Source of the DNA: Mycobacterium heckeshornense | GTDB taxonomy: Bacteria; Actinomycetota; Actinomycetes; Mycobacteriales; Mycobacteriaceae | Reading direction: 5' to 3' | Assembly: GCF_016592155.1 (NCBI RefSeq) | Contig: NZ_AP024237.1 | Coordinates: forward strand, 3,534,001-3,598,000 | Length of the DNA: 64,000 nucleotides | Part shown: positions 3,547-26,513 of the stretch, piece after piece | How the letters are laid out: the number at the start of each line of letters is the position of its first letter | Position numbering within the stretch: the stretch's first letter is position 1 | The notes under the pieces: generated by a model | Databases searched by the model: none | What the model saw: only the letters and a program-made list of their open reading frames with translations | What the model was told of the DNA's origin: nothing | Made by a program: the position numbers and the translations under genes

Positions 3547-4408
3547 TCGCCGCGGTGGGATCGGCGACGCCCCGGCCGGCGATATCGGGTGCGCTGCCGT
3601 GGACCGGCTCGAACATCGACGGGTTGGTGCCGGTAGCGTCGATGTTGCCGCTGGCGGCCAGGCCGATGCCGCCGCACAGCGCGGCCGCCAGGTCGGTGAT
3701 GATGTCGCCGAATAGGTTGTCGGTGACGATGACGTCGAACCGGCCCGGGTCGGTGAGCAGGTGAATCGTCGTCGCGTCGACGTGCTGATAGGCGACCTCG
3801 ACGTCCGGGAACTTCTCGCCGACCTCCTCGACGGTCCGCGACCACAGCGCGCCGGCGAACGTCAGGACGTTGGTCTTGTGCACCAGGGTCAGGTGTTTGC
3901 GCCGCAGCCGTGCGCGCTCGAACGCGTCGTGCACGACCCGGCGCACCCCGAAGGCGGTGTTGACGCTGACCTCGGTGGCCACTTCATGGGCGGTGCCGAC
4001 GCGGATCGCGCCCCCGGTGCCGGTGTAGGGGCCCTCGGTGCCCTCGCGCACCACGACCAAGTCGATCTCGGGATTGCCACGTAGCGGGCCGCTCACCCCC
4101 GGGTACAGCCGCGCCGGGCGCAGGTTGATGTGGTGGTCGAGCTCGAAGCGCAGCCGCAGCAGCAGACCGCGCTCCAGGATCCCGCTGGGAACCGAGGGAT
4201 CCCCGATCGCGCCGAGCAGGATCGCGTCGTGGGCGCGCAACTCGTCGAGAACCGAGTCGGGCAGCACTTCCCCGGTGGCGTGCAAACGGCGGGCGCCTAA
4301 GTCGTAGCTCGTCTTCTCCACATCGGGCAGTACCGCGTCGAGGACCTTGACGGCTTCGGTCACCACCTCGGGGCCGATCCCGTCCCCCGGGATAATCGCC
4401 AATTTCAA
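3398..4408 (-). CDS. leuB: 3-isopropylmalate dehydrogenase
   Basis: LeuB oxidises and decarboxylates 3-isopropylmalate to 2-oxoisocaproate in leucine synthesis, using NAD+ and Mg2+ or Mn2+. The 336-residue protein opens with [13 protein letters not shown] and has [12 protein letters not shown], the substrate-site YQHVDATT region, [12 protein letters not shown] with metal-binding Asp residues, and the coenzyme loop [11 protein letters not shown]. The start is a TTG that overlaps the serA stop as TTGA, so translation is probably coupled to serA. The 3' end overlaps the antisense tail of the second MFS gene. Confidence 0.96.
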
Positions 4409-5991
4409 GACAGGTCAACCACTTCGAGTTTGTTGGCGTCGACGGCCGCGCCGATGGCCGCCCGCACATCCTGGGGCACGTCGCGGTTGAGCCGCAACAG
4501 GATCGTCGCGCCGGGACCCTCGGTGTCCTCGGACAGCTGGGCGGCGTGGATGTTGACTCCCGCCGCGCCGAGCAACGTGCCGATCTTGCCGAGGGCACCC
4601 GGCCGGTCGACGTAGTTGATGATCAGGTTGATGCCCTCGGCGCGCAGGTCGAAGTTGCGACCGTTGATCTGCACGATCTTCTGCACCAGCTGGGGGCCGG
4701 ACAGCGTGCCGGCGACGTTGACCGTCGACCCGTCGGCGCCCACTGCCCGTACGTCGACCAGGCTGCGGTGGTTGGGGCTTTCGCTGGCCGTGGTGATCTC
4801 GGCGATGACTCCGCGTTCTTCGGCGATGGCCGGGGCGTTGACGAATGTCACCGGCTCTTCGATGACCGCCGAGAACAAGCCCCGCAGAGCCGAAAGCCGC
4901 AGCACCTCAACGTCTTCCGCGGCTAGCTCACCGCGTGCCTGCACCGACAGCGACACCGGCAGCTCGTCGGAGAGAGCACCGGCAAGCAGACCGAGTTTGC
5001 GCACCAAGTCCAGCCACGGTGCCACCTCCTCGCTGACCGCCCCGGCCCCGACGTTGACCGCGTCGGGCACGAATTTTCCCGCCAGCGCCAGCCTTACGCT
5101 TTCGGCGACGTCGGTGCCCGCCCGGTCCTGCGCCTCGGCGGTGGAGGCGCCCAGGTGCGGGGTGACGACTATTTGCGGCAGCTCGAACAGCGGGCTGTCG
5201 GTGCACGGCTCCTTGGCGAACACGTCGATACCGGCGGCCCGCACGTGTCCGCTGCGCACGGCCTCGGCCAGCGCCATTTCGTCGACCAGGCCACCGCGTG
5301 CGGCGTTGACGATGATCACGCCGGGCCTGGTCTTGGCCAGCGCCTCCTTATCGATCAGTCCGAGCGTTTCCGGGGTCTTCGGCAGATGCACGGAGATGAA
5401 GTCGGAGCGGGCCAGCAACTCGTCCAGGCTGAGCAGTTCGATGCCCAGCTGCGCCGCCCGTGCCGGCGACACGTAAGGGTCGTAGGCGATCAGGTGGGCA
5501 CCGAAGGCGGCCAGCCGCTGGGCGACTAGCTGCCCGATGCGGCCCAGCCCGACAATCCCGACGGTCTTACCGAAGATCTCGGTTCCGGTGAACGACGAGC
5601 GCTTCCACTCGTGAGCGCGCAGCGAGGCGTCGGCCGCGGTGATTTGGCGCGCCGCGGCCAGCAGCAACGCCAGCGCATGCTCGGCGGCGCTGTGGATATT
5701 CGACGTCGGTGCGTTGACGACGAGCACGCCTCGCGCGGTGGCGGCCTCGACATCGACGTTGTCCAGCCCCACCCCGGCGCGCGCGACGATCTTCAACTTG
5801 GGCGCCGCGGCCAACACCTCCGCGTCGACCGTGGTCGCAGAACGCACCAGCAGTGCGTCGGCCTCGGGCACCGCCGCAAGCAGTTTCTCCCGGTCCGGGC
5901 CATCGACCCACCGGACCTCGACGCCGTCACCCAGCGCGGCAACCGTTGATTCGGCGAGTTTGTCGGCGATCAATACAATAGGCAAGCTCAC
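4405..5991 (-). CDS. serA: D-3-phosphoglycerate dehydrogenase
   Basis: SerA catalyses the first step of serine synthesis, oxidising 3-phosphoglycerate to 3-phosphohydroxypyruvate. The GTG start at 5991 gives 528 residues beginning (M)[11 protein letters not shown], the length I recall for M. tuberculosis SerA1. Visible are the NAD-binding [10 protein letters not shown], the catalytic region with LPKTPET and [10 protein letters not shown], the intervening (ASB) domain of the long SerA type, and a C-terminal ACT domain from about residue 455 ([16 protein letters not shown]), which mediates serine feedback. The open frame extends upstream to 6051, but those residues do not look like SerA. Confidence 0.96.
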
Positions 5992-6093: not shown

Positions 6094-7632
<1,539 letters not shown>

Positions 7633-15036: not shown

Positions 15037-16149
15037 TCAACAGATCCGCGGTAGCGGGTCACCGACGAGCATGTCGACGATACGGGTGCCCCCGAATCCC
15101 GTGCGCACCACGACAGTCTGCGCGGGCTCCGCCACGATCTGTCCGATCTCGGCCGCCTCGGCGCCAAGCGGATGCGACCGTAACGCCACCACCGCGGCCT
15201 CGGCTTCCTCCGGCGCCACGACGGCAACGAACTTGCCTTCGTTGGCGACGTAGAGCGGGTCGATGCCCAGCAGCTCGCACGCGCCACTGACCATGGGGTG
15301 CACCGGAAGCCGCTCTTCGTCGAGCACTACTGCCAGACCACACGCCTGCGCCAACTCGTTGCAGACGGTGCCCACCCCGCCGCGGGTGGGGTCGCGCAGC
15401 CACCGCGTGGCGGGGGCCGCCGCCAGCAGCAGCTCTACCAACGGGCTCACCGACGCGGCGTCAGAACGGATATCGGCTTCGATCGCCAAGTCACCGCGGG
15501 CCAGCATCACCGCCATACCGTGATCGCCCATCGAGCCCGACAGCAGCACCTTGTCGCCGGGACGTACCGACTCCGCGGACAGCCACCTGCCCTCGGGGAT
15601 GACGCCGGCACCGGTCGTCGTGATAAACACCCCGTCTGCAGCGCCGTTGGGCACTACCTTGGTATCCCCGGCGACGATCTGCACACCGGTTTGGGCTGCG
15701 GCCGCGGCCATGTCGGCAACGATCTCCTTCAACTCAGCTATCGGGAAACCCTCTTCGAGGACGAATGCGGCCGAAATCCATTGCGGAACAGCGCCCGTCA
15801 CCGCAAGATCGTTTGCGGTCCCGTGCACCGCCAGCTCGCCGATCGAGCCGCCTGGAAATCTCCTGGGCTGCACCACGAACGAGTCGGTCGACAGCACCAG
15901 CCGCTCGCCGCTCGGCAGGCTCAGAACAGCGCCATCGCCAAGCGGCTCCAGCAGCGGGTTTCGGAACGCTTCGACGAACACCGCGTCGACCAGTGCGGCT
16001 GACGCCTTTCCGCCGGCGCCGTGTGCCAGTGTGACATGTTCGTCGAGCAGCCGCGGCCGGCGTCTGCGAAACGATTCAATGCGCTCGATCACGTCATGCT
16101 CGGCGAAATGCGGGCCCGAGGAGAGGTATTCGCTTGTCGACTTGCTCAT
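15037..16149 (-). CDS. hypE: Hydrogenase maturation factor HypE
   Basis: HypE dehydrates the carbamoyl group on its C-terminal Cys to a nitrile, making the active-site CN ligands. The 370-residue protein has the PurM-like LAHGAGGKAS and HGTANDLAVTGAVP motifs, the DPTRGGVGT loop, and ends in PRIC, the exact C-terminus the mechanism needs. The ATG at 16149 overlaps the stop of the preceding isomerase gene by one base (TGATG). Confidence 0.96.
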   Translation of the reverse strand: MSKSTSEYLSSGPHFAEHDVIERIESFRRRRPRLLDEHVTLAHGAGGKASAALVDAVFVEAFRNPLLEPLGDGAVLSLPSGERLVLSTDSFVVQPRRFPGGSIGELAVHGTANDLAVTGAVPQWISAAFVLEEGFPIAELKEIVADMAAAAAQTGVQIVAGDTKVVPNGAADGVFITTTGAGVIPEGRWLSAESVRPGDKVLLSGSMGDHGMAVMLARGDLAIEADIRSDAASVSPLVELLLAAAPATRWLRDPTRGGVGTVCNELAQACGLAVVLDEERLPVHPMVSGACELLGIDPLYVANEGKFVAVVAPEEAEAAVVALRSHPLGAEAAEIGQIVAEPAQTVVVRTGFGGTRIVDMLVGDPLPRIC

Positions 16150-16811
16150 CAGGCCTCCGCTCGCTGACTGGCCATCCGATCGTGTACCGCCAACCACAGC
16201 TCATAGCCCAGCAGGGCTTGAGCTTCTTGGATCCGGTGCACGCTCTGCGAATGAACGACGAAGCACGCGTCGACGTCCCCGCTTTTGGCGAATGCGCCGC
16301 CTTCATATCCGGCGAAACCGACGGTGTACACGTCGCGACGACGTGCTTCGGCCAGTGCCGCCATCAGGTTCGGTGAGCTGCCGCTGGTGGACATCGCGAT
16401 CGCGATGTCGCCCGGTTTGGCGCGGGCGATCAGCTGCCGGGCGAAAACGAGCTCGAAGCCGACGTCATTGCCCAGCGCGGTCAGGATCGCCTGGTCGGCG
16501 GTCAACGCCCAGGCCGGTAGCGGTGTCCCGACGGGTGGACGGGCGAATAGCCTTGCCAGCGTGGTGGAGTCGGTGCAGCTGCCACCGTTGCCGAAGGTAA
16601 ATAGCCGTCCACCGGTGGCGAAGCGACTCGCGATTTCGGTGGCCGCCCGGTGCAGCAGTTCGGCGTTTTCTTCCAGAGTGCGGCGGCGCAGGGCCAGGCT
16701 CTCGCCCGCCTTGGCTTGCGCTGACGCGGCCAGGTCGGCCAGCAGCGACTTGGGATCGTTCTCCTGGGCGTCGATAAACGGGTACAAGAAGTTGGTGGGT
16801 TCGTCGGTCAT
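16149..16811 (-). CDS. GmhA-like SIS-domain phosphosugar isomerase in the hydrogenase operon
   Basis: A 220-residue SIS-domain protein resembling D-sedoheptulose-7-phosphate isomerase: FTFGNGGSCTDSTTLARLF, TALGNDVGFELVFARQL, and the phosphate-binding AMSTSGSSPNLMAALAEARR. Such isomerases normally serve heptose synthesis, which this operon does not suggest, so the substrate here is unknown. The ATG at 16811 overlaps the stop of the SIS-HypC gene by one base; a GTG three bases earlier is an alternative. Similar genes occur in actinobacterial uptake hydrogenase clusters, but I know of no assigned role. Confidence 0.8.
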   Translation of the reverse strand: MTDEPTNFLYPFIDAQENDPKSLLADLAASAQAKAGESLALRRRTLEENAELLHRAATEIASRFATGGRLFTFGNGGSCTDSTTLARLFARPPVGTPLPAWALTADQAILTALGNDVGFELVFARQLIARAKPGDIAIAMSTSGSSPNLMAALAEARRRDVYTVGFAGYEGGAFAKSGDVDACFVVHSQSVHRIQEAQALLGYELWLAVHDRMASQRAEA

Positions 16812-17524
16812 CACACGTCCTCGTCCACTTTGCTAATCGCCGTTCCCGCGTGCACCAGCACCAGATCGCCGACGGCCACAGGGTCAACGAGCGCGGTGGC
16901 CACGGTCTCGATCCCCTTGGCGGTGCGCACCTGGGCCAGGCCGTCCGCTGACGGCACGACCACCTCGCCGAGCCGGCCTTCGTCGCTGCAGGTGACGCAA
17001 ACGTCATCGGCGCATTGCTGTTTCAGCAAGCCCGGGTGCTCGAAGCAGACGTGGGTGAGCTCCCACAACAGGTGGTAGAACAGCACGAACCCACCGGTGG
17101 CGGGAACGCGGGGATCGGGGTCGTCGAGCCAGAGCACGTGGTCGGCGATCCCGGGCAGCGGCCGCTTCCCGCTGCCGATCCACACGGTGGTAACACCCCA
17201 TGCCGGGCCTCGGCGCATTACCGAGCGCACCTGCGGATCGTCGGCGCCGGAAACCGCGATCACGATGTCACCGGGGCGCACCGAAACCCGCACCATGTCG
17301 ATGACATCGGGACCGGTAATCGCCACGGCCGGCAACGCTCGCTTGCCGACGATCACCGGATGAATGAACTCGACCGCGATATGCAGGGCGTGCGGCTCCC
17401 AGCCGGGCGCGATGGACCACATGGTGGCGCCGGCTGCGAACCGCCTGGCCATGGTGAACGCGGTAGCGGCCAGATCCGCTGTCAGCTCCGCGCCCAGTCC
17501 GCGGTCGATCGCGGTGGTAGTCAT
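16811..17524 (-). CDS. Fusion of a SIS domain with a HypC-like domain
   Basis: 237 residues in two parts. Residues 1-170 form a SIS-type sugar-phosphate-binding domain (VRPGDIVIAVSGADDPQVRSVMRRGPAWG, a degenerate relative of the GmhA loop). From about residue 175 a HypC/HupF-like domain follows, starting with CVTCSDEGRLGEVV and ending with VGDLVLVHAGTAISKVDEDV, where genuine HypC has VGFAMAKIDE. The HypC Cys is therefore internal (CVTC), not N-terminal. The gene is coupled on both sides: its ATG overlaps the hypF stop as ATGA, and its stop overlaps the isomerase start. Confidence 0.78.
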   Translation of the reverse strand: MTTTAIDRGLGAELTADLAATAFTMARRFAAGATMWSIAPGWEPHALHIAVEFIHPVIVGKRALPAVAITGPDVIDMVRVSVRPGDIVIAVSGADDPQVRSVMRRGPAWGVTTVWIGSGKRPLPGIADHVLWLDDPDPRVPATGGFVLFYHLLWELTHVCFEHPGLLKQQCADDVCVTCSDEGRLGEVVVPSADGLAQVRTAKGIETVATALVDPVAVGDLVLVHAGTAISKVDEDV

Positions 17525-19902
17525 CGCTTAACCACCTTCTCCTTATCGAACACGTGCCGCTGCACGGCGTCCTGGACCGCTCCGTCCATCGCGGTGAGCA
17601 CGCAAACCGCGGCCTGGCCCAGCGCCAGTCCACCGTCGTTCGGTGGAACGGTATGATGGGTCAATACTTCAAATCCCGCCTCTTGCAGCTGCTTTCGGCA
17701 TGAAGTCAAAAGCAGCACATTCTGGAACACCCCGCCGGTAAGGCCCACCAACGCCACGTCGCCCGCGACCAGGCTGACCACGTCCGCGACCGCGGCCGCG
17801 ACGGCGTGGTGGAACCCGGCCGCGAGCTCGGCCGGCTTCGCCCCGGCGCGCAGCATCGACACCATCGCGCGGATCATGCCGAGCGGGTCGATCACCCCGC
17901 TGCGGCGCACATCCAGGCACAGCTGCGCCGGCCCGTCCGCCGTTTCGGCCAACACCTCCAGTTCGATCGCGGCCTGGGCCTCGTAGTCGATCCGCTGTCG
18001 CACACCCAGCAGCGAGGCCACCGCGTCGAACAGCCGACCCATGCTCGAACACGGGATGCAGCCCACGCTCGTTTCCAATTGCCAACGGCTAGCGCGCAAT
18101 TCGGCAGGCGTTGCGGCCGCCACCGGGGGGAGATCGGGGGTCCAGTCGATGCCGGCGGTCCACAGCTGAGACAGCGCCATCCGCCACGGGTTGCGCACCG
18201 CGGCGTCGCCGCCGGGCAGCGGCACCGGCAGCAGGTGGCCGACCCGGGTGAATCGGTGGCTGTCGGGCCCGACAGCGAGAATCTCACCACCCCAGATAGT
18301 TCCGTCGCTGCCGTAGCCGGTGCCGTCGAAGGACACGCCGATGATCGGTTCGCCGAGCCGCCCCTGCTCGGCCAGCAACGAGACGACATGGGCATGGTGG
18401 TGCTGGACGAGGTCCAGGGGAAGGTCGCCGGCATGGCGCTCGGCCCAGCCGCGCGTCTGATACCCCGGATGCAGATCGGCAGCCAATCGCACTGGGTGCT
18501 GGCGGATTTCACTGAGCTGGGTGACTGCACGCTCGAACGCTCGCAGCGTCTCCAGGGTGGCCATGTCACCGATGTGACCGGACATGAATGCGCGCGAACC
18601 GTCGGTGAGACAGAAGGTGTTCTTCAGTTCCCCGCCCACCGCCAACACGGCAGGTCCGTCGCGGCCGAGGTCGACAGGTAGCGGCGCATAGCCACGCGAT
18701 CGGCGGATCGGCAGTTCGTGGCCGTCGACCACGCGCACCACCGAGTCGTCGCAGGGTACGTGGATCGGCCGGTCGTGGTCGAGCACCGCGTCGCATAACT
18801 GCGAAAGTCGGTGCGCTGCATCGTCTTCTGTGAAGCAGATCGGTTCGTCGGAACGGTTGGCGCTGGTCAGCACCAGCGCATCCGGCACCGGGGCGTGGGC
18901 GCCCGGGACCGGCGCCAGCAGCAGGTGATGGATCGGCGAGTACGGCAGCATCAGCCCCAGCAGTGGGTTAGCGGGCGCGACAGCGTCGGCGACCGGTGCG
19001 TCTTTGCGCCGACGCAGCAACACGATGGGACGGGCGGGGCTGGTCAGGATCGCGGCCTCGTCGTCGTCGATGTGCGTGTAGCGACGGGCGACTTCCAGAT
19101 CACGCACCAGCATGGCGAACGGTTTGGCGCCGCGCGCCTTTCGTGTGCGCAGCCTGGCGACCGCCGCCTCGTCGTCGACGACGCAGGCAAGATGGTAGCC
19201 ACCGATGCCTTTGATCGCGACGATGGCTCTGGCTGCCAGCGCCTGCTGGGTGGCGGCAAGGGCTGCGTCGGCTCCCTCGATCCGCCGGCCCGCACCCGAA
19301 AACCACAGCGACGGGCCGCAGTCCGGGCAAGCGATGGGCTGGGCGTGAAATCGGCGGTTGGCGGGATCGCGGTATTCGGCGGCGCAACGCTCACACATGG
19401 CGAACGACGACATGGTGGTGGCCGGGCGATCGTAGGGCAACGCTTTGATGATGGTGAATCGCGGGCCGCAATTGGTACAGGTGACAAAGGGATGCCGGTA
19501 ACGACGGTCGGCAGGGTCGAACAGCTCGGCGACGCAGGCGTCGCACACTGCGATGTCGGGTGGAATCGGCGTGGTGGTGCCCGGAACCGTCTGGCTTTCG
19601 ACGATATGGAAACCAGCGTCGGCTCTGGCGTCGATGTCGACGACGTCGACCCGGTTGATCTTCGCCAGCGGTGGCGCATCGGCACGCAATCGGCGATTGA
19701 ATTCGGCCAGACTTTGCCGCGGTCCCTGCACCTCCACAAAGACCGCACCCGAGTCGTTGCCGACGAAACCGGCCAGGCGCAGCTCGGTGGCGATCCGGTG
19801 TACAAAGGGCCGAAATCCGACGCCCTGGACCACCCCGGTAACGATGAACCGCTGCCGGGCGGTGTCAGCCCGCACCAACACGTCAGTCATGTCGACCGCC
19901 AC
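17521..19902 (-). CDS. hypF: Carbamoyltransferase HypF
   Basis: HypF makes the carbamoyl group from carbamoyl phosphate and ATP and transfers it to HypE. The 793-residue protein shows all expected domains: an N-terminal acylphosphatase (VTGVVQGVGFRPFVHRIA), paired zinc fingers (CDACVAELF, CTNCGPRFT, CERCAAEYRDP, CPDCGP), a YrdC-like domain (AIKGIGGYHLAC, KPFAMLVRD), and a C-terminal Kae1-like domain with VQHHHAHVVSLLAE and GVFQNVLLL. The start is a GTG at 19902; an ATG at 19890 is possible. It follows the microprotein gene by 27 bases. Confidence 0.95.
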   Translation of the reverse strand: MAVDMTDVLVRADTARQRFIVTGVVQGVGFRPFVHRIATELRLAGFVGNDSGAVFVEVQGPRQSLAEFNRRLRADAPPLAKINRVDVVDIDARADAGFHIVESQTVPGTTTPIPPDIAVCDACVAELFDPADRRYRHPFVTCTNCGPRFTIIKALPYDRPATTMSSFAMCERCAAEYRDPANRRFHAQPIACPDCGPSLWFSGAGRRIEGADAALAATQQALAARAIVAIKGIGGYHLACVVDDEAAVARLRTRKARGAKPFAMLVRDLEVARRYTHIDDDEAAILTSPARPIVLLRRRKDAPVADAVAPANPLLGLMLPYSPIHHLLLAPVPGAHAPVPDALVLTSANRSDEPICFTEDDAAHRLSQLCDAVLDHDRPIHVPCDDSVVRVVDGHELPIRRSRGYAPLPVDLGRDGPAVLAVGGELKNTFCLTDGSRAFMSGHIGDMATLETLRAFERAVTQLSEIRQHPVRLAADLHPGYQTRGWAERHAGDLPLDLVQHHHAHVVSLLAEQGRLGEPIIGVSFDGTGYGSDGTIWGGEILAVGPDSHRFTRVGHLLPVPLPGGDAAVRNPWRMALSQLWTAGIDWTPDLPPVAAATPAELRASRWQLETSVGCIPCSSMGRLFDAVASLLGVRQRIDYEAQAAIELEVLAETADGPAQLCLDVRRSGVIDPLGMIRAMVSMLRAGAKPAELAAGFHHAVAAAVADVVSLVAGDVALVGLTGGVFQNVLLLTSCRKQLQEAGFEVLTHHTVPPNDGGLALGQAAVCVLTAMDGAVQDAVQRHVFDKEKVVKR

Positions 19903-19929: not shown

Positions 19930-20049
19930 CTACATGTGCCGGATCTTGAGGTAGCGGCGGGCATCGGGAAGAGACATGATGCCCATCGCCAGCGCGGCAA
20001 CGGCTATGAGCCCCAGGATGCCGACAAACACCCAACCCACGATCTCCAT
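19930..20049 (-). CDS. 39-residue membrane microprotein (DUF6893-like)
   Basis: A short gene encodes MEIVGWVFVGILGLIAVAAL followed by a few more hydrophobic residues and a basic end with SLPDARRYLKIRHM. This is one membrane helix with a cytosolic basic tail, like the DUF6893 small membrane proteins I recall. AAAGGA lies 7 bases before the ATG, and the gene sits 12 bases after one operon gene and 27 before hypF, so it is very probably translated. The function is unknown; membrane attachment or quinone-side contact of the hydrogenase is a guess. Confidence 0.7.
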   Translation of the reverse strand: MEIVGWVFVGILGLIAVAALAMGIMSLPDARRYLKIRHM

Positions 20050-20061
20050 GTCGATTTCCTT

Positions 20062-21399
20062 TCATTCGGAGGGCTGTGCTTCAAGCGGCTCAACCTCGTC
20101 GGGAGAGAAATACAGGTATCGGCCGTACCAGTCGTGCAGGTCCGCTGCCGGATCATCGTCGACGACGACGCCGAGATGCTTGTTGCCGTCGACGTCTTCG
20201 TGCACCGACGTGACACGAGCGGTCTTGCCCGCGACGAAAAGGTCTTGCGCATCGGCGCGGCGCGCTGGATGCAGCCGCACCCTGCTGCCTCTGGCCAACG
20301 GGATGCCATTCACCAGGATGGCGTCGGTCTCCGGGCGCACCGCGTTGTCCGCCAGCGGATCCCACCAGTCCACTCCCTCGGGTATTTCGGGGATGAGCCG
20401 CGCAACGGTGGCATCTGCGCTCTGATGGGGCTGGCGCAGCACGCCGTGCAGGCCCTGCATCTCTTCGGGCGACATCGCGTCGCAGCGTTCGATGATCCGG
20501 GCGGCCAGTGGATCGGTGGCGCGCGCCTGCGCCTTCTCCTCCTCGGTCATGGTCATCACCCGCAGGGTGAGTATCTCGTCGATCTCGGTGGCGTCGTACA
20601 GCGCAGTCTGGCTCTGCTCGGCGATTTCGGGATGGTCGTAGAGAATGATCGGCGAGATCAGCAGCAGATCGCGATCACCAGCTGCGCCGGCCAGCACCGG
20701 AAAGCATCGGTGCTGCTCGCAACGTCCTGCGGCAGCTGCGGCGTACTCTGGCGGCTCAAGCAACGAAATAAACTCTCCTCCAATAACTTCCGCAATCATG
20801 TGGCTGCCAATCAACGATCTGGCGATCGCGTCGTCTTTATCCGTCGCCGGTGCACCGGTGTTCTGGAGGGTAACGGTGACACGGTCCAGTGCACCATCAC
20901 CTTCGACTCCGACGGAGAGCAACCCACGAATCTCCCGCCTCGTGCGCACCAGTCGACCACCGGCGACCGCTTCGATGTCGGTTCCCGCCGGAGCGGTCAC
21001 GGGAACAGTCCACAACCCCGGCTGCTCAGCGAATTCGAAAGGACCGAAGCACAACTCGCATTCCACCGCTTCGTCCCACGAAATCCACGAACCCGCCGCC
21101 GTCGTCAGTTTGTCAACGGGTTGATAGCGCCCGCACCCCATGTCGCGCTCGGCACCGCGATGCTGCAGTTGCAAGAATCGCACCACCAGTTTGACGGCAT
21201 CCGCAGCGTCAACGAGAAACTGCGCCGACATATCCGCGTCCTCGCCGATCCCTGCTGCAGCGGCGCCGGGGGGACCGAGAACTCCGAACTGCCAACGTGA
21301 TTGGTTCTTGCGGGACGTCGCGCGGTACGGATACAGCAGGTAGCCCTCATACAGCACGGCATCGGCGACGCTGCGGGCGCGGTCCCAGTTTGCGCTCAT
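20062..21399 (-). CDS. Uncharacterised 445-residue hydrogenase-operon protein
   Basis: I do not recognise a named domain. The protein opens MSANWDRARSVADAVLYEGY followed by LLYPYRATSRKNQ, a phrase I associate with actinobacterial uptake-hydrogenase clusters. The middle contains CELCFGPFEF and an acidic helical stretch (IDEILTLRVMTMTEEEKAQARATDP). The C-terminal 110 residues look beta-rich (VNGIPLARGSRVRLHP, then VTSVHEDVDGNKHLGVVVDDDP), like an SH3-type tail. There is no signal peptide or membrane segment. The ATG overlaps the DUF6084 stop as ATGA. Confidence 0.75.
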   Translation of the reverse strand: MSANWDRARSVADAVLYEGYLLYPYRATSRKNQSRWQFGVLGPPGAAAAGIGEDADMSAQFLVDAADAVKLVVRFLQLQHRGAERDMGCGRYQPVDKLTTAAGSWISWDEAVECELCFGPFEFAEQPGLWTVPVTAPAGTDIEAVAGGRLVRTRREIRGLLSVGVEGDGALDRVTVTLQNTGAPATDKDDAIARSLIGSHMIAEVIGGEFISLLEPPEYAAAAAGRCEQHRCFPVLAGAAGDRDLLLISPIILYDHPEIAEQSQTALYDATEIDEILTLRVMTMTEEEKAQARATDPLAARIIERCDAMSPEEMQGLHGVLRQPHQSADATVARLIPEIPEGVDWWDPLADNAVRPETDAILVNGIPLARGSRVRLHPARRADAQDLFVAGKTARVTSVHEDVDGNKHLGVVVDDDPAADLHDWYGRYLYFSPDEVEPLEAQPSE

Positions 21400-22043
21400 G
21401 GGACCTCCTCGCGGGCGGCGGCCAGCAGCGCGGTGACCGCATCGTCGAGATCCAGGAAGCCGCGCGCGTACTTATACGCAGCCAGCGCCGTCACCGTGTC
21501 GTGAGAAAGCCTGACCCATCCGCTGTTCGGGTAGTGCTGCTGGATGAGATCCCGCCACACGGCGACCGGCATGTCGTATCGGTCCTCGCAGTCCCACGGC
21601 ACTTGCTGGACCGAAAAGCCACGCTCGCCCGCCATGAATACCGTTCCGCTGAAAAGAAATTGCAGCGGCACTACGCCATCGCGCAATGCATGGAAGTACT
21701 TGGCCGCGGCGACCTCGAAGTCGTAGGTGCACGGCAGCCCGAGGGCTAATTCGGTGGCGCCGGTGAATCCCGGCACCATTGCCGCGCAGTGCTGCCAGAC
21801 AAAGCTTCGCTGGGTGCTCGCCCATCGTTGGCGCGGCCCGAACAAATCGGCCAGCCCGGCAGCCTCCTCGTCGGAATAACTGCGCCGCAACGGATCGATG
21901 CGAACCTGGCAGCGCAGGGCGATGGCGTGCACCGGTTGGTCGTCGGGCACCGAAATCGCCACCCGCGCGGTCAGCGTGGGCGTGACGGCGTAGGCTTCGG
22001 GGACCACGTCGATGACGTCAAAGTCGAGGTCGGCCGTGGTCAT
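21396..22043 (-). CDS. DUF6084 family protein of the hydrogenase operon
   Basis: 215 residues matching the DUF6084 family by its phrases ALRCQVRIDPLRRSYSDEE and PCTYDFEVAAAKYFHALRDG, with FLFSGTVFMAGERGF and QVPWDCEDRY further on. It is predicted cytosolic, alpha/beta, and has no known activity. It is tightly coupled, with ATGA overlaps at both ends, between the DUF5947 and 445-residue genes. Family members occur next to group 2a hydrogenases, so a structural or maturation role is likely but untested. Confidence 0.74.
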   Translation of the reverse strand: MTTADLDFDVIDVVPEAYAVTPTLTARVAISVPDDQPVHAIALRCQVRIDPLRRSYSDEEAAGLADLFGPRQRWASTQRSFVWQHCAAMVPGFTGATELALGLPCTYDFEVAAAKYFHALRDGVVPLQFLFSGTVFMAGERGFSVQQVPWDCEDRYDMPVAVWRDLIQQHYPNSGWVRLSHDTVTALAAYKYARGFLDLDDAVTALLAAAREEVP

Positions 22044-22663
22044 GGTCGTCGCTCCGCACTGCGCGCGGCGAGCGTGGCGAAGAAGTCATCGATGAAATCG
22101 CGGGCGTCCTGGCCCCCGTCGAAACCGCGCCACAATTTCCGCAGGGTCCCGACGAATTCGTAGCAGGCGTCGATGGGCACCAGGTAACAGATCGGGTCTC
22201 CCGCGTCGGATATGCGCACCAGCAGCGCTTCCACGTCGTCGGCGAGCAGGCCCACGCGGGGTTCGGTGGCGCTAATGGCGGTCCAGGCGTCCAAGTCGAG
22301 TTCGGACTCGGTGGCGCCGGCGGGCCCGGGATAGAACGCGACAATGCGACCCAGCGTCGAGTTACGGAAGAAAAACGTCACTCCGACCGGAATCTGCAGC
22401 CCCTCCCAGGCGCGCCGGTCCAGCCGGAAATCGGGGAATGCCAGGTAACGGTCCGGGACCGCGCGGTACTTCAAGTCGGCATGCTGGTCAGTGAACAGCA
22501 GGTAGCAGGCTCGGCACACGCACATCAATTGGCGGGCAGGGATATTCACGACGTGCTGGTGCGAATCCGCGATCGCTTCCGAGCACATGTCGCATCGCTG
22601 GCCGACGGGCGCGGGCGCACGCCGGCCGGTGATCCGGGACAGCACATCGTAGGCGCTCGTCAT
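22040..22663 (-). CDS. DUF5947 family protein with a four-cysteine motif
   Basis: 207 residues. Near the N-terminus two cysteine pairs, CDMCSE and CRACYLLF, are about 26 residues apart and probably bind zinc or an iron-sulfur cluster. The rest (VPDRYLAFPDFRLDRRAWEGL, IPVGVTFFFRNS, RIVAFYPGPAGATES) fits the DUF5947 family known from hydrogenase operons. It follows the NifU/Rieske gene by 49 bases and overlaps the next gene by four. The function is unknown; metal handling or electron transfer fits the cysteines. Confidence 0.75.
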   Translation of the reverse strand: MTSAYDVLSRITGRRAPAPVGQRCDMCSEAIADSHQHVVNIPARQLMCVCRACYLLFTDQHADLKYRAVPDRYLAFPDFRLDRRAWEGLQIPVGVTFFFRNSTLGRIVAFYPGPAGATESELDLDAWTAISATEPRVGLLADDVEALLVRISDAGDPICYLVPIDACYEFVGTLRKLWRGFDGGQDARDFIDDFFATLAARSAERRP

Positions 22664-22712: not shown

Positions 22713-23615
22713 TCATGCCGGTGCTCCCATCGGCTCGGTGGGCACCGCCACCGACAGCACCCCGTCGCGAACCAGCAGCGGGAAGGGGTCCAGATGTGCC
22801 GCGGGATCGCCCAGCCCGGCGCCGGCGTGCACGATGTCGAAATCACTGCGACATCGCGGGCAACGCAAGACCGGTCCACCGGCGTTGTCCGAAGCCCGTA
22901 ACGCCGCACCGGCCAGCGACCCGTCGCATACCGGACAGTTGTCGCGGTAGGCGTACAACTGCTCACCGACCCGGCAGACAAGTATGGATAGGCCCGCGAC
23001 GAGGAACCCGCCCACTTCGCCGGGCACCAAGTCGGCTATCTCGGGCACCTGGTGCCACGCAGCGCCGGTCGAATGCACCTTCGCCAGCAGTGATGCGGCC
23101 GGGATTACCCGCCCCGAATCAGCTTCGGCCGCAACGACTTCGATCGACGAAATCTCCGGCGCTGCGGCACGCACGGCATCCTCGACGGCCAATTCCAACG
23201 TCACCGCCGACGACGGGCAGCTCTTGCAGCTACCGGAAAACCGCAAGCGAACGGTGTCATCAACGATGTCGAGCAGATGCACGTCGCCGCCGTGGGAACC
23301 CAGGTAGGGCCGGACGCGGTCCAATGCGTCTGCGACCCTGCGCTCGACGTCGTGCGGGTGCAGCCCGTGCACCAGCAGCAGGCTGGCCACCAGGTCGTCG
23401 CCGGCCAGCCGCGCGATGAGTCCCGGATCGCCGATCATCTCCACGATCCGTCTAAGACCCGCGCCGTAGAGCTCGACTACCTCGCGGACCAGCTGCTCGG
23501 CGCGCTCACGCGCAACGGACCCGGCCGCCGACGTGGCGTCCAGCAGCGTCTGGATCCGATCGCCCGCCGTGCGCCATTGCGCGTCCCCCTCGAACTCCTC
23601 GGGGCGATCTGCCAT
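22713..23615 (-). CDS. NifU/Rieske-type iron-sulfur protein (HucE-like)
   Basis: 300 residues. After a helical N-terminal part, a NifU C-terminal-type domain lies at about residues 95-165 (RPYLGSHGGDVHLLDI and the CKSCPSS cluster site). A Rieske-like domain starts about residue 190 and carries CPVCDGSL and CPRCRSDFD. The Rieske ligand pairs are normally Cys-X-His and Cys-X2-His; here all four positions appear to be Cys, so it may hold a rubredoxin- or zinc-type site. The gene lies 3 bases after hucL. It corresponds in architecture to the Rieske-type HucE described with M. smegmatis Huc, where it serves electron transfer. Confidence 0.82.
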   Translation of the reverse strand: MADRPEEFEGDAQWRTAGDRIQTLLDATSAAGSVARERAEQLVREVVELYGAGLRRIVEMIGDPGLIARLAGDDLVASLLLVHGLHPHDVERRVADALDRVRPYLGSHGGDVHLLDIVDDTVRLRFSGSCKSCPSSAVTLELAVEDAVRAAAPEISSIEVVAAEADSGRVIPAASLLAKVHSTGAAWHQVPEIADLVPGEVGGFLVAGLSILVCRVGEQLYAYRDNCPVCDGSLAGAALRASDNAGGPVLRCPRCRSDFDIVHAGAGLGDPAAHLDPFPLLVRDGVLSVAVPTEPMGAPA

Positions 23616-23618
23616 CCA

Positions 23619-25418
23619 TCACTCCCCGGTAGCTGCTTGTGTCGGCGAGTGCAGTCGCTCCAGCGTCTTGCCCTTGCCCAGGTACATGTGCACTCCGCAC
23701 GGCAGACACGGGTCGAAACTGCGTACCGTGCGCATGATGTCGATGCCCTTGAAATGCTCGCGGTCGTTCTCCTCGAAGATCGGCTGACCTTGCACCGCGT
23801 CCTCGTAAGGCCCCGGCGTGCCGTAGAAGTCGCGCGGGTTGGCGTTCCACGGCGTCGGCGGATACGGGTGGTAGTTGGCGATCTTGCCGTCGCGGATCAC
23901 CATGTGGTGGCTGAGCACTCCACGCACTGCCTCGGTGAAACCGCAGCCGATGCCTTCTTTGGGCACCTCGAACTTTTCCCAGGTCTTGGTGCGACCGGCC
24001 CGGATCTCGGCGAGCGCCTTCTCGGCGAAGTGCAGCGCACACGCGGCCGCATAGGCCTGGAAGTAGGTCCGCGCCCGATCGCGCTCGATGGTGTTAGACC
24101 CATGCCGGGGAATCTTCCACTCGAATTCGACCGGGCCCTTGAGCGCGGTCTTGGGCAGGTTGATCTGCACGGAATGCCCGGTGGATTTGACGTAACCGAT
24201 GTCGACCAGGCCGCCCAGCGCGGTCGCCCATAGCCGCGCCAGCGGCCCGCCGCCGGTATCGAGTGCCAGGTAGTCACCGTTGTGGAACCAGCGGGGCGAC
24301 ATTACCCAGCTGTACTTGCCACCGTCCATGTCCCGCTTCTGTGGGTGTGGCAGGGTGTGCTGGTTCCACGGGTGCCGACGGTCCACCGGATTACCCAGCG
24401 GGTCGGTCTCGACGAACATCTCCTGATCGGTCCAGTCGTCGTAATACGAACTGCCCAAAAGAATCCGGATGCCCAGGTTGATGTCGACCAGCGAAGTGGT
24501 GACCAGCTTGCCGTCGACCACTACTCCGGGTGTGACGAACATCTTCCGGCCCCAGGACTCCATATCCCGGTAGTCGAAGTTGCAGTGTTCGGGATCCTGG
24601 AACGAACCCCAGCAGCCCAGCAGGGTGCGTCGCAAACCGACCTTCTCATAACCGGGCATCGCCTCGTAGAAGAAGTCGAACAGGTCGTCGTGCATGGGCA
24701 CGACCTTCTTCATGAACTCGACGTAGCGCATCAGCCGGCTCATGTAGTCGGTCATCAACTGCACGGTCGCAGTGGTGCCGATGCCGCCCGGGTACAGCGT
24801 GGACGGGTGCACGTGCCTGCCCTCCATGAGGCAGAACATTTCCCGTGTGTACCGGCTGGTTTGCAGTGCCTCGCGGTAAAACTCGCCGCTGAACGGGTTG
24901 AGCGCCCGCATGATGTCGGCGATGGTCTTGTACCCGTGCATATCAGCGTGGGGCGCGGGGGTGTTTTCCGCTTGAGCCAGCACGCCGGGGTTGGTCTCGG
25001 AGACCATCTTTTCGCAGAAGTCCACACCAACCAGGTTCTCCTGGAAGATGTTGTGGTCGAACATGTATTCCGCGGCCTCGCCGAGGTTAATCAGCCACTC
25101 GGCCAGGTGCGGCGGCTTGACACCGTAAGCCATGTTCTGCGTGTAACACGAGCACGTGCAGTGGTTGTCGCCGCAGATTCCGCAGATGCGGCTGGTGATG
25201 AAGTGTGCATCGCGGGGATCCTTGCCCCTCATGAAAAGCGAGTAGCCACGGAAAATCGACGAGGTGGAATGACACTCGACCACTTCTTTGTTGTCGAAGT
25301 CGATCTTGGTGTAAATACCGAGACTGCCGACGATCCGGGTGATGGGGTCCCACGCCATCTCGACCAGTTGGCCGGGTTCACGCTTGGCCTGGGTCGGCTC
25401 GGGAATAATCCTTGTCAT
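23619..25418 (-). CDS. hucL: [NiFe]-hydrogenase large subunit, group 2a (Huc type)
   Basis: The catalytic subunit oxidises H2 at a Ni-Fe(CN)2CO centre. It has 599 residues, with the L1 motif RICGICGDNHC (Cys79 and Cys82) and the L2 motif DPCLPCGVH (Cys571, Cys574, His577), which supply the four Ni-binding cysteines. A 22-residue tail (starting MYLGKGKT) follows His577, so a specific endopeptidase should be required to finish maturation; none is encoded in the window. The gene is 39 bases downstream of hucS. Absence of export signals points to a cytosolic enzyme, and Huc-type enzymes oxidise H2 at very low concentrations and pass electrons to the quinone pool. Confidence 0.95.
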   Translation of the reverse strand: MTRIIPEPTQAKREPGQLVEMAWDPITRIVGSLGIYTKIDFDNKEVVECHSTSSIFRGYSLFMRGKDPRDAHFITSRICGICGDNHCTCSCYTQNMAYGVKPPHLAEWLINLGEAAEYMFDHNIFQENLVGVDFCEKMVSETNPGVLAQAENTPAPHADMHGYKTIADIMRALNPFSGEFYREALQTSRYTREMFCLMEGRHVHPSTLYPGGIGTTATVQLMTDYMSRLMRYVEFMKKVVPMHDDLFDFFYEAMPGYEKVGLRRTLLGCWGSFQDPEHCNFDYRDMESWGRKMFVTPGVVVDGKLVTTSLVDINLGIRILLGSSYYDDWTDQEMFVETDPLGNPVDRRHPWNQHTLPHPQKRDMDGGKYSWVMSPRWFHNGDYLALDTGGGPLARLWATALGGLVDIGYVKSTGHSVQINLPKTALKGPVEFEWKIPRHGSNTIERDRARTYFQAYAAACALHFAEKALAEIRAGRTKTWEKFEVPKEGIGCGFTEAVRGVLSHHMVIRDGKIANYHPYPPTPWNANPRDFYGTPGPYEDAVQGQPIFEENDREHFKGIDIMRTVRSFDPCLPCGVHMYLGKGKTLERLHSPTQAATGE

Positions 25419-25457: not shown

Positions 25458-26513
25458 TCACCAGGTGCGGCGCGCACCCGTCAGGAGTTCGGTACCCTTG
25501 CGCCGCCAACGCGGCTCTTTGTCGACGGTGCGGTTGGTGATACCGCGCAAGTTGCGGATCAGCGAGCCGTACAAGCCCGACGCGGTAGTTGACACTTTGC
25601 CGCCCGGCGGCTCGTCCATGAACGGCATGAACTTGTCCGGGAAACCGGGCATGGTGCAACCGATGCAGATGCCTCCGACGTTGGGGCAGCCGCCGATACC
25701 ATTGATCCAACCACGCTTGGGCACGTTGCACTTCACGACCGGGCCCCAACAGCCCAGCTTCACAATGCATTTCGGCGACCCGTACTCCGTGGCGAAGTCG
25801 CCCTGCTCGTAGTAGCCGGCCCGGTCGCACCCCTCGTGCACGGTGTTGCCGAAGAGCCACTGCGGTCGCAGCGCGTCATCTAGCGGGATCATCGGTGCTT
25901 GCCCGGTGGCCATGTAGAGCAGGTAGGTCAACGTCTCGGCCAGGTTGTCCGGATGGATCGGGCAGCCTGGCACGCAGACGATCGGAATGCCCGCTTTGCT
26001 CTTCCAGTCCCAGCCAAGGTAGTCCGGAACGCCCATGGCGCCGGTCGGATTGCCCGCCATCGCGTGGATGCCGCCGTAGGTGGCGCAGGTTCCGGCTGCC
26101 ACGATCGCAGTTGCCTTGGGCGCAAGGCGGTCCAGCCACTCGCTGGTGGTCATCGGCTGACCCGTCGCGGGATTGTTGCCGAAACCGCACCAATAGCCTT
26201 CGGTTTTGATTTGCTCGTTGGGGATGGAACCCTCCACGACGAGCACAAATGGTTCGAGTTCACCGCGATCAGCTTTGAAGAACCACTCGAGAAAATCGTC
26301 CGCTCCGCCGCTGGGGCCGCATTCGAAGTCGATAAGCGGCCAATGCACGGCGATCTTAGGCAGCCCGGGGAGCGCGCCGAGAGCGATCTCCTCCACGCTC
26401 GGTTGGGTGGCGGCAGTCAACGCCACCGAATCGCCGTCACAACTCAAACCCGCGTTGATCCAGAGCACATGGATGAGGGTGTCTTCCGCTTTGACTGCTG
26501 CTTCCGTTGGCAT
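25458..26513 (-). CDS. hucS: [NiFe]-hydrogenase small subunit, group 2a (Huc type)
   Basis: The electron-transfer subunit has 351 residues. The usual first cluster motif Cys-X2-Cys reads LSCDGDSVAL here, so Cys25 is kept but the second position is Asp28. GTCATYGG, VPGCPIHPD, CIVKLGCWGPVVKCNVPKRG and GCPNVGGICIGCTMPGF provide the remaining ligands for three clusters. There is no twin-arginine signal, as expected for a cytosolic group 2a enzyme. The ATG at 26513 has GGAAAG 7 bases upstream. It is the first gene of the operon. Confidence 0.94.
   Translation of the reverse strand: MPTEAAVKAEDTLIHVLWINAGLSCDGDSVALTAATQPSVEEIALGALPGLPKIAVHWPLIDFECGPSGGADDFLEWFFKADRGELEPFVLVVEGSIPNEQIKTEGYWCGFGNNPATGQPMTTSEWLDRLAPKATAIVAAGTCATYGGIHAMAGNPTGAMGVPDYLGWDWKSKAGIPIVCVPGCPIHPDNLAETLTYLLYMATGQAPMIPLDDALRPQWLFGNTVHEGCDRAGYYEQGDFATEYGSPKCIVKLGCWGPVVKCNVPKRGWINGIGGCPNVGGICIGCTMPGFPDKFMPFMDEPPGGKVSTTASGLYGSLIRNLRGITNRTVDKEPRWRRKGTELLTGARRTW

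Follow-up and report, generated by a model that had tools for sequence, protein, structure and literature searches.

Group 1h [NiFe]-hydrogenases (Hyd-1h, or Hhy) are seen as a main biological sink for atmospheric H2 (abstracts of PMC7174314 and other papers). As described in the available sections of PMC7174314, their subunits have neither a transmembrane helix nor a signal peptide; the enzyme nevertheless associates with the membrane in M. fumariolicum, M. smegmatis and Pyrinomonas, and its affinity drops on detachment. The interaction of Hyd-1h with the membrane awaits elucidation according to excerpts of PMC13332983, which also describe a conserved cluster that includes hypothetical genes. 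Here we analyse a hydrogenase operon of Mycobacterium heckeshornense, contained in a stretch of 64,000 nucleotides that we call the window (G000:C1:3534001-3598000, in a genome of 4.96 Mb). Besides the hydrogenase genes it carries four genes, for a DUF5947 protein, a DUF6084 protein, a protein of 445 residues (P445) and a single-helix microprotein of the DUF6893 family.

A described cluster with the same order hhyS-hhyL-NifU-DUF5947-DUF6084-P445 is that of Cupriavidus necator H16 (hofKG, PHG066-PHG070 and hyp genes; NC_005241.1). Its P445, DUF5947 and DUF6084 proteins are 34%, 41% and 38% identical to those of the window. It differs in that the maturation protease stands straight after P445 and the microprotein after the protease, and in its enzyme (AH), which is reported to be cytoplasmic (parts of PMC4377017 and PMC7174314) and of low affinity (PMC7174314, same part). 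PHG066-069 appear in the consulted part of PMC4377017 as four unknown open reading frames (ORFs). The Hhy operon of M. smegmatis is also alike, with hhyS, hhyL and hhyE followed by MSMEG_2717, a relative of PHG067 that is named as an electron-acceptor candidate in the excerpts of PMC6883350. These excerpts report that Hhy activity in M. smegmatis requires hhyE; of the genes after hhyL, the deletion of hhyE is the only one they report, and they do not mention the microprotein.

Two further systems are similar in general plan. The HoxOQRTV sets of group 1d hydrogenases likewise serve one hydrogenase class as accessory proteins encoded in its operon, and include a rubredoxin. The group 1d operon, however, encodes a cytochrome b subunit (cybH), and we found none in the Hhy operon in a Pfam scan of ten window proteins. 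CydX and KdpF are single-helix small subunits of membrane complexes, with about 30-40 residues. Unlike in these two cases, the partner enzyme of the DUF6893 microprotein would be cytosolic.

The hydrogenase of the window is, judged by its sequence, Hhy of group 1h. The best solved relatives of the small and large subunits are HofK (expectation value, E, 3.4e-162) and HofG (E 0), both from PDB entry 5aa5, and the next chains follow at about 1e-41 and 4e-45, respectively. The first-pass annotation had placed the four genes in a Huc (group 2a) operon. This identity was ruled out, since the entry 7utd ('Hydrogenase-2'), which we take to be Huc, matched far below 5aa5 for both subunits (E 1.6e-29 for HhyS and 3.4e-35 for HhyL). 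HhyL is 77.8% identical to the product of the Cupriavidus necator H16 plasmid gene, at 97% coverage. In a scan of species genomes, the window hhyL was 87-94% identical to its best 80 matches, all of which were from Mycobacterium, Mycolicibacterium, Nocardia, Rhodococcus and other Mycobacteriaceae. In the window genome one other PF00374 frame (431 residues) was found, located elsewhere.

We observed that the three soluble genes (DUF5947, DUF6084 and P445, the block) are linked to hhyL. Among 198 evenly drawn actinobacterial genomes, 30 passed the hhyL threshold (E 1e-100), and 24 of these were group 1h by identity (65-100%); the remaining six had large subunits of 38-42% identity only. DUF5947 was present in 22 of the 24, P445 also in 22 and DUF6084 in 21 (DUF5947 and P445 were missed in G042 and G184, DUF6084 in G128, G171 and G184). 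None of the three was found in the six genomes with the 38-42% subunits. Outside the group 1h genomes of this sample all three occurred together solely in G189, a short-contig draft where the block lies at one end of a 6.9-kb contig and the only piece of a large subunit found fell below the threshold. Another genome, G150, has an internal P445 fragment of about 35 residues (residues 92-124) within an hhy remnant. Of 72,556 plasmid records, 12 carried hhyL at the same threshold; P445 and DUF5947 were present in the same 12, and DUF6084 in 10 of them. The Pfam models for DUF5947, DUF6084 and DUF6893 had zero matches in 14 control genomes, a control that the P445 search did not have.

We surveyed 109 loci of group 1h, namely the window, the 80 best loci of the scan, 22 actinobacterial and 6 plasmid loci, and found hhyE in 106, DUF5947 in 103, DUF6084 in 101 and P445 in 100. 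Most of the misses were in loci that end about 3 kb or less after hhyL. The locus of G042 (L121) has hhyL and DUF6084, and DUF5947 was not found there; in that of G184 (L149), hhyL is interrupted and the block is absent despite 3.2 kb of following sequence. At 11 loci with distant large subunits (about 38-43% identical or comparable; L139-L148 and L215, some of them short or cut by contig ends), neither the microprotein nor the three soluble genes (sought by phmmer at E 1e-3) were found. Coverage of phyla beyond Actinomycetota came from the Cupriavidus and Methylocystis plasmids only.

The block is not kept as a whole in every type of operon (types were defined by gene order and hhyL identity). 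In L130, L131 and L151, with hhyL 71-72% identical, DUF6084 is missing and P445 lies upstream of hhyS, and 14 further loci with this order (L201-L214) also lack DUF6084. It is thus missing from 17/17 loci of the second gene order, while P445, DUF5947 and hhyE are present in 17/17. P445 and DUF5947 are therefore kept, and DUF6084 can be absent and cannot be essential everywhere. In 12 of the 14 further loci a protease lies between P445 and hhyS.

The microprotein was traced in the same samples. Its Pfam model matched 19 of the 198 genomes, 16 of which have a group 1h hhyL (p 4.4e-15); the other three were G189 (which has the block), G150 and G195. In a second sample of 296 genomes of the class, overlapping with the 198, hhyL (E 1e-100) was present in 55, including a distant relative in G425, which leaves 54 group 1h genomes. 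The microprotein profile A8 matched 40 of the 296, and 37 of these had a group 1h hhyL (p 2.0e-30). The three others were G150, G203 and G220; the matches in G203 and G220 were rejected as chance (they lie inside frames of 396 and 795 residues, and no hydrogenase gene was found within the surrounding 5.0 and 7.0 kb). The distance between hhyL and the microprotein was 3.5-4.7 kb in 35/35 genomes having the best copies of both on one contig (in two genomes they were on separate contigs).

Among the 17 group 1h genomes without an A8 match, G128 and G171 carry a variant of the microprotein. This variant, seen in L130, L131 and L151, is a small hydrophobic frame that follows DUF5947 and closes with P-S/G-L-x-R-E-x-R-I-W-R-M and 11 more residues. 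In addition, 13 of 14 further loci have, after DUF5947, a frame with an RY-containing tail and a final M, or the variant. Four of these 13 reached a profile E of 0.04-0.8 and one (L202) gave no profile match, so that these five rest on place and tail. No microprotein or variant was found in G334 (L201) or G182 (L120). The microprotein or a relative thus stands at the same place in 52/54 group 1h genomes, a figure to which no statistical test is attached, the looser search by place and tail having been made in hhyL genomes alone. In the 109-locus survey, a strict count gave the microprotein in 93 loci, or 95 with Methylocystis and L050 added. Ten of the remaining 14 end at or before its place (L058, L078, L085, L086, L089, L121, L127, L129, L133 and L135), and in L149 and L120 the clusters are broken.

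The possibility that the microprotein is confined to Mycobacteriales was ruled out. A profile made from rows of 39 residues, almost all of them from Mycobacteriales, also matched loci that the first search had missed, among them Streptomyces-type plasmids and Cupriavidus pHG1 (E 8.2e-4), and the loci of the second gene order add place and tail. The frame on pHG1 (NC_005241.1 66753-66851, plus strand) has 33 codons and is preceded by AGGAGG; it lies between the protease gene and hypF, a stretch for which the PLSDB gene table, by its own description incomplete, shows no gene. Methylocystis parvus has at the same place a 32-codon frame ending in RDIVRYIKITMM; its E of 2.3 is not significant alone, and we accepted it because of its place and tail. 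Both frames follow putative ribosome-binding sites, and neither is listed in the gene tables consulted. These results show the microprotein to be a nearly constant member of the group 1h operon, well beyond mycobacteria.

This member of the operon is what is new here. The first-pass annotation had suggested that the four could form an undescribed complex, and the soluble block has in fact been in print as unknown ORFs (the PHG066-069 mentioned above). Among the papers searched, none describes a DUF6893 microprotein in group 1h operons by its title or the opening of its abstract, although Cordero 2019, Schafer 2013 and Berney 2014 may mention it. The microprotein had been called uncharacterised too; the gene is real, and a Pfam name, DUF6893, exists for it already. 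The name DUF6084 occurs in a paper on aurodox.

The microprotein starts in the window with AAAGGAAA upstream, and consists of one hydrophobic helix and then a basic tail, SLPDARRYLKIRHM, at the stop. Its best 19-residue hydrophobicity mean is 2.64, against 1.90 for hhyE and at most 1.44 for the other block proteins. Its length is 39 residues in nearly all Mycobacteriales rows, with a tail consensus close to PDxRRYLKxRxM at the stop, and D29, R32, Y33, R37 and the final M are identical in 77/77 distinct rows. Over 79 rows of 39 codons, the median ratio of nonsynonymous to synonymous polymorphism (pN/pS) was 0.28 in the last 14 codons and 0.67 in the N-terminal 25. In these rows the N-terminal charge is -1 in 59/79 and the tail charge is +2 to +4 in 79/79. 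By the positive-inside rule, the basic flank of a membrane helix faces the cytosol, so the tail is predicted to be cytosolic, in agreement with the single-helix membrane protein first proposed. The Streptomyces-type rows have a basic N-terminus as well, and the prediction of orientation is therefore weaker there.

In DUF5947, the residues C24, C27, H35, H37, C48, C50 and C53 showed zero substitutions in 121 rows, with 1-2 rows gapped there. The two cysteine pairs noticed initially are thus part of a larger set of five cysteines and two histidines (C5H2), which presumably form a metal site. DUF6084 is predicted to be a beta-sandwich with C-terminal helices, and fold comparison led to common beta-sandwich folds. 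The AlphaFold2 model of P445 (predicted local distance difference test score 74.5, predicted template modelling score 0.59) has a beta domain at about 45-250, then helices, and an SH3-like C-terminal barrel at about 360-440. It was compared with the beta domain of DrmA (DISARM), a possible relative, and its C-terminus with PetP/PsaE/NdhS-like SH3 subunits, and neither kinship was confirmed. P445 has no clear solved relative by sequence and no Pfam or NCBIfam family, and a search of viral contigs for it gave no lead. Sequence searches of solved structures, including the 5aa5 enzyme, returned no relative of the four proteins; a match at 0.0027 of one family alignment (A2) to SPC25 was taken as chance.

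The co-occurrence with hhyL across genomes and plasmids, the single orientation with hhySLE and the near-constant microprotein indicate that the block serves the group 1h hydrogenase, and the four genes are bound to it as first supposed. Pfam also assigns none of them to the Hyp maturation factors, in line with what had been claimed. As to function, the reading we put first, tentatively and as somewhat short of probable, is that the microprotein docks Hhy or its assembly at the membrane, with the other three acting as assembly or electron-transfer factors. Hyd-1h has no known anchor yet is reported to associate with the membrane in several species, and a single-helix protein encoded in the operon, its cytosolic tail under constraint, fits the need for one. 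In this reading the microprotein would span the cytoplasmic membrane, its N-terminus facing outwards and its conserved basic tail reaching into the cytosol; the tail would dock cytosolic HhySL(E), or the assembly complex, at the site of electron entry into the quinone pool. DUF5947 may bind metal through its C5H2 residues and act as an iron-sulphur delivery or relay protein beside HhyE. P445, as core, and DUF6084, as auxiliary, may be beta-rich adaptors or assembly proteins that act after the Hyp-dependent insertion of the cofactor and before docking. Docking of the mature enzyme has, in our view, a small lead over docking of its assembly. In its most specific form, the DUF6893 microprotein would be the membrane anchor of group 1h, forming with P445 and DUF5947 a docking and electron-relay unit, and this attachment to the quinone-containing membrane would set the high apparent affinity for H2 through which atmospheric H2 can be oxidised; we consider this form doubtful.

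Several observations weigh against a docking role. The Cupriavidus cluster carries the microprotein frame though its enzyme is reported to be cytoplasmic, which also speaks against a simple anchor. The M. fumariolicum cluster, in the part of PMC7174314 consulted, is without the hypothetical proteins of the Pyrinomonas operon and encodes two hypothetical membrane proteins of a different kind; a different anchor may therefore operate there. No microprotein match was obtained in L132 and L134 (hhyL 65-66%), where hhyE, DUF5947, DUF6084, P445 and the protease are all present, nor was the microprotein found in L120 (where P445 is truncated and the protease is missing) or L201 (no hhyS found). The lack of sequence relatives of the four proteins among solved structures, noted above, also counts against it. 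Finally, the microprotein usually accompanies the maturation protease or hyp genes, even in a genome where no hhy gene was found nearby (G195), which favours a role in maturation.

The chief alternative, which we hold to be nearly as likely, is that all four proteins are Hhy-specific maturation factors and do not belong to the working enzyme itself. DUF5947 would deliver or guard iron-sulphur clusters, P445 and DUF6084 would chaperone the apo-subunits, and the microprotein would hold the protease or assembly site at the membrane. HoxO, HoxQ, HoxR, HoxT and HoxV have accessory roles in membrane-bound hydrogenases and are a model for such a function; we do not claim relatedness. In favour of maturation, the protease lies within 900 bases of the microprotein in 73/74 Mycobacteriales loci that carry it (the 74th ends 228 bases past the microprotein), and none of the four proteins was found in the 5aa5 entry. 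Further, two genomes keep microprotein, protease and hyp genes with hhySL gone or reduced to pieces. The mycobacterial G150 (L163 10155-11436) has a remnant with hypA, hypB, pieces of hhyS, a piece of P445, the microprotein, the protease, hypF and more hyp genes. In G195, protease, microprotein and hyp genes stand with no hhy gene found nearby, and a large-subunit frame of 444 residues lies elsewhere.

Gene order does not always follow a maturation role, however. We found no maturation protease inside the window operon, where the microprotein adjoins P445; the closest protease relative in the genome (L172, G000:C1:3614933-3615307, with 70% identity to the protease on the M. intracellulare plasmid) lies outside the window, about 55 kb from hhyL. 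In L203-L214, the 12 of 14 loci described above, the protease is upstream of hhyS and the microprotein is after DUF5947. We also compared five family alignments with HoxL, HoxO, HoxQ, HoxR, HoxT, HoxV and HoxZ using hhalign, and the best probability was 5%; no similarity was found in this comparison, in which each of the seven was represented by one sequence only, which makes a weak profile.

We consider it improbable that HhyS passes its electrons in the cell to DUF5947 (PHG067/MSMEG_2717), with the microprotein anchoring that carrier. The proposal of MSMEG_2717 in the excerpts of PMC6883350 and the unsubstituted C5H2 residues agree with it, but the site could equally bind zinc, and G042 has hhyL and DUF6084 with DUF5947 not found. 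The idea of a passenger small ORF, conserved merely through overlap or neighbourhood with regulatory DNA, is very improbable, for the weak constraint on the hydrophobic part (median pN/pS 0.67) is offset by the nearly constant length in Mycobacteriales, the constrained tail (0.28) and the recurrence of this tail among differently ordered genes and in Cupriavidus.

The docking reading bears on two points that are treated as open in the parts of PMC7174314 and PMC13332983 consulted, namely how an enzyme without a membrane subunit couples to the respiratory chain, and why affinity is lost off the membrane. A gene of 33-39 codons is easily overlooked and easily deleted, so that the question of membrane attachment is directly testable. 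The block may also supply the missing genes for making oxygen-insensitive group 1h enzymes in other hosts.

The genes of the window operon are listed in Table 1. The four ORFs lie on the minus strand at the positions and lengths first given, and the ATGA overlaps and short gaps between them were all borne out. DUF5947 and DUF6084 overlap by 4 bases at 22040-22043, and DUF6084 and P445 by 4 bases at 21396-21399. The gaps are 12 bases from P445 to the microprotein, 27 from the microprotein to hypF, and 49 from hhyE to DUF5947. Across 119 sources, the 4-base overlap between DUF5947 and DUF6084 was seen in 80 loci and that between DUF6084 and P445 in 84, a recurrence that is more than chance. At the hhyE/DUF5947 junction, 72 loci have a 4-base overlap, in contrast to the 49-base gap of the window. 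NCBIfam gave zero families for DUF5947, DUF6084, P445 and the microprotein of the window.

Table 1. Hydrogenase operon genes in the window (window positions; E, expectation value)
Gene or product	Length (residues)	Position	Strand	Match
hhyS, group 1h [NiFe]-hydrogenase small subunit	351	25458..26513	-	Pfam NiFe_hyd_SSU_C + Oxidored_q6; HofK 5aa5
hhyL, large subunit	599	23619..25418	-	PF00374; HofG 5aa5
hhyE, NifU-like, C-terminal CxxC pairs	300	22713..23615	-	PF01106, E 3.2e-21
DUF5947 protein	207	22040..22663	-	PF19372, E 2.8e-73, 245.8 bits (gathering cut-off 25)
DUF6084 protein	215	21396..22043	-	PF19562, E 2.8e-96, 321.5 bits (gathering cut-off 25)
P445	445	20062..21399	-	no Pfam family
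DUF6893 microprotein	39	19930..20049	-	PF21833, E 1.7e-13, 50.8 bits (gathering cut-off 24.6)
hypF, downstream of microprotein	793	17521..19902	-	TIGR00143, E 2.1e-227

Beyond hypF, the window has a HypC-like gene (16811-17524, minus strand; 237 residues) in which the HypC domain is matched at 190-236 alone, and the long N-terminal part is without a Pfam match at E 0.1. It is followed by a SIS-domain gene at 16149-16814, and the Cupriavidus and Methylocystis clusters have annotated SIS genes too. Downstream of its hhy operon, the M. intracellulare plasmid carries the nuo genes A to F of complex I (L037 15913-19800).

Three loci showed unusual microprotein frames. L124 has two, at 5327-5443 and 6259-6507, one on each side of the protease. 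L126 also has two (4045-4143 and 15301-15420); one of these is encoded on the other strand, next to a hypC-like frame that lies upstream of hhyS. In M. palustre (L050 15299-15931), the microprotein frame lacks the usual stop and runs into the maturation protease, which may be a natural fusion or a sequencing error.

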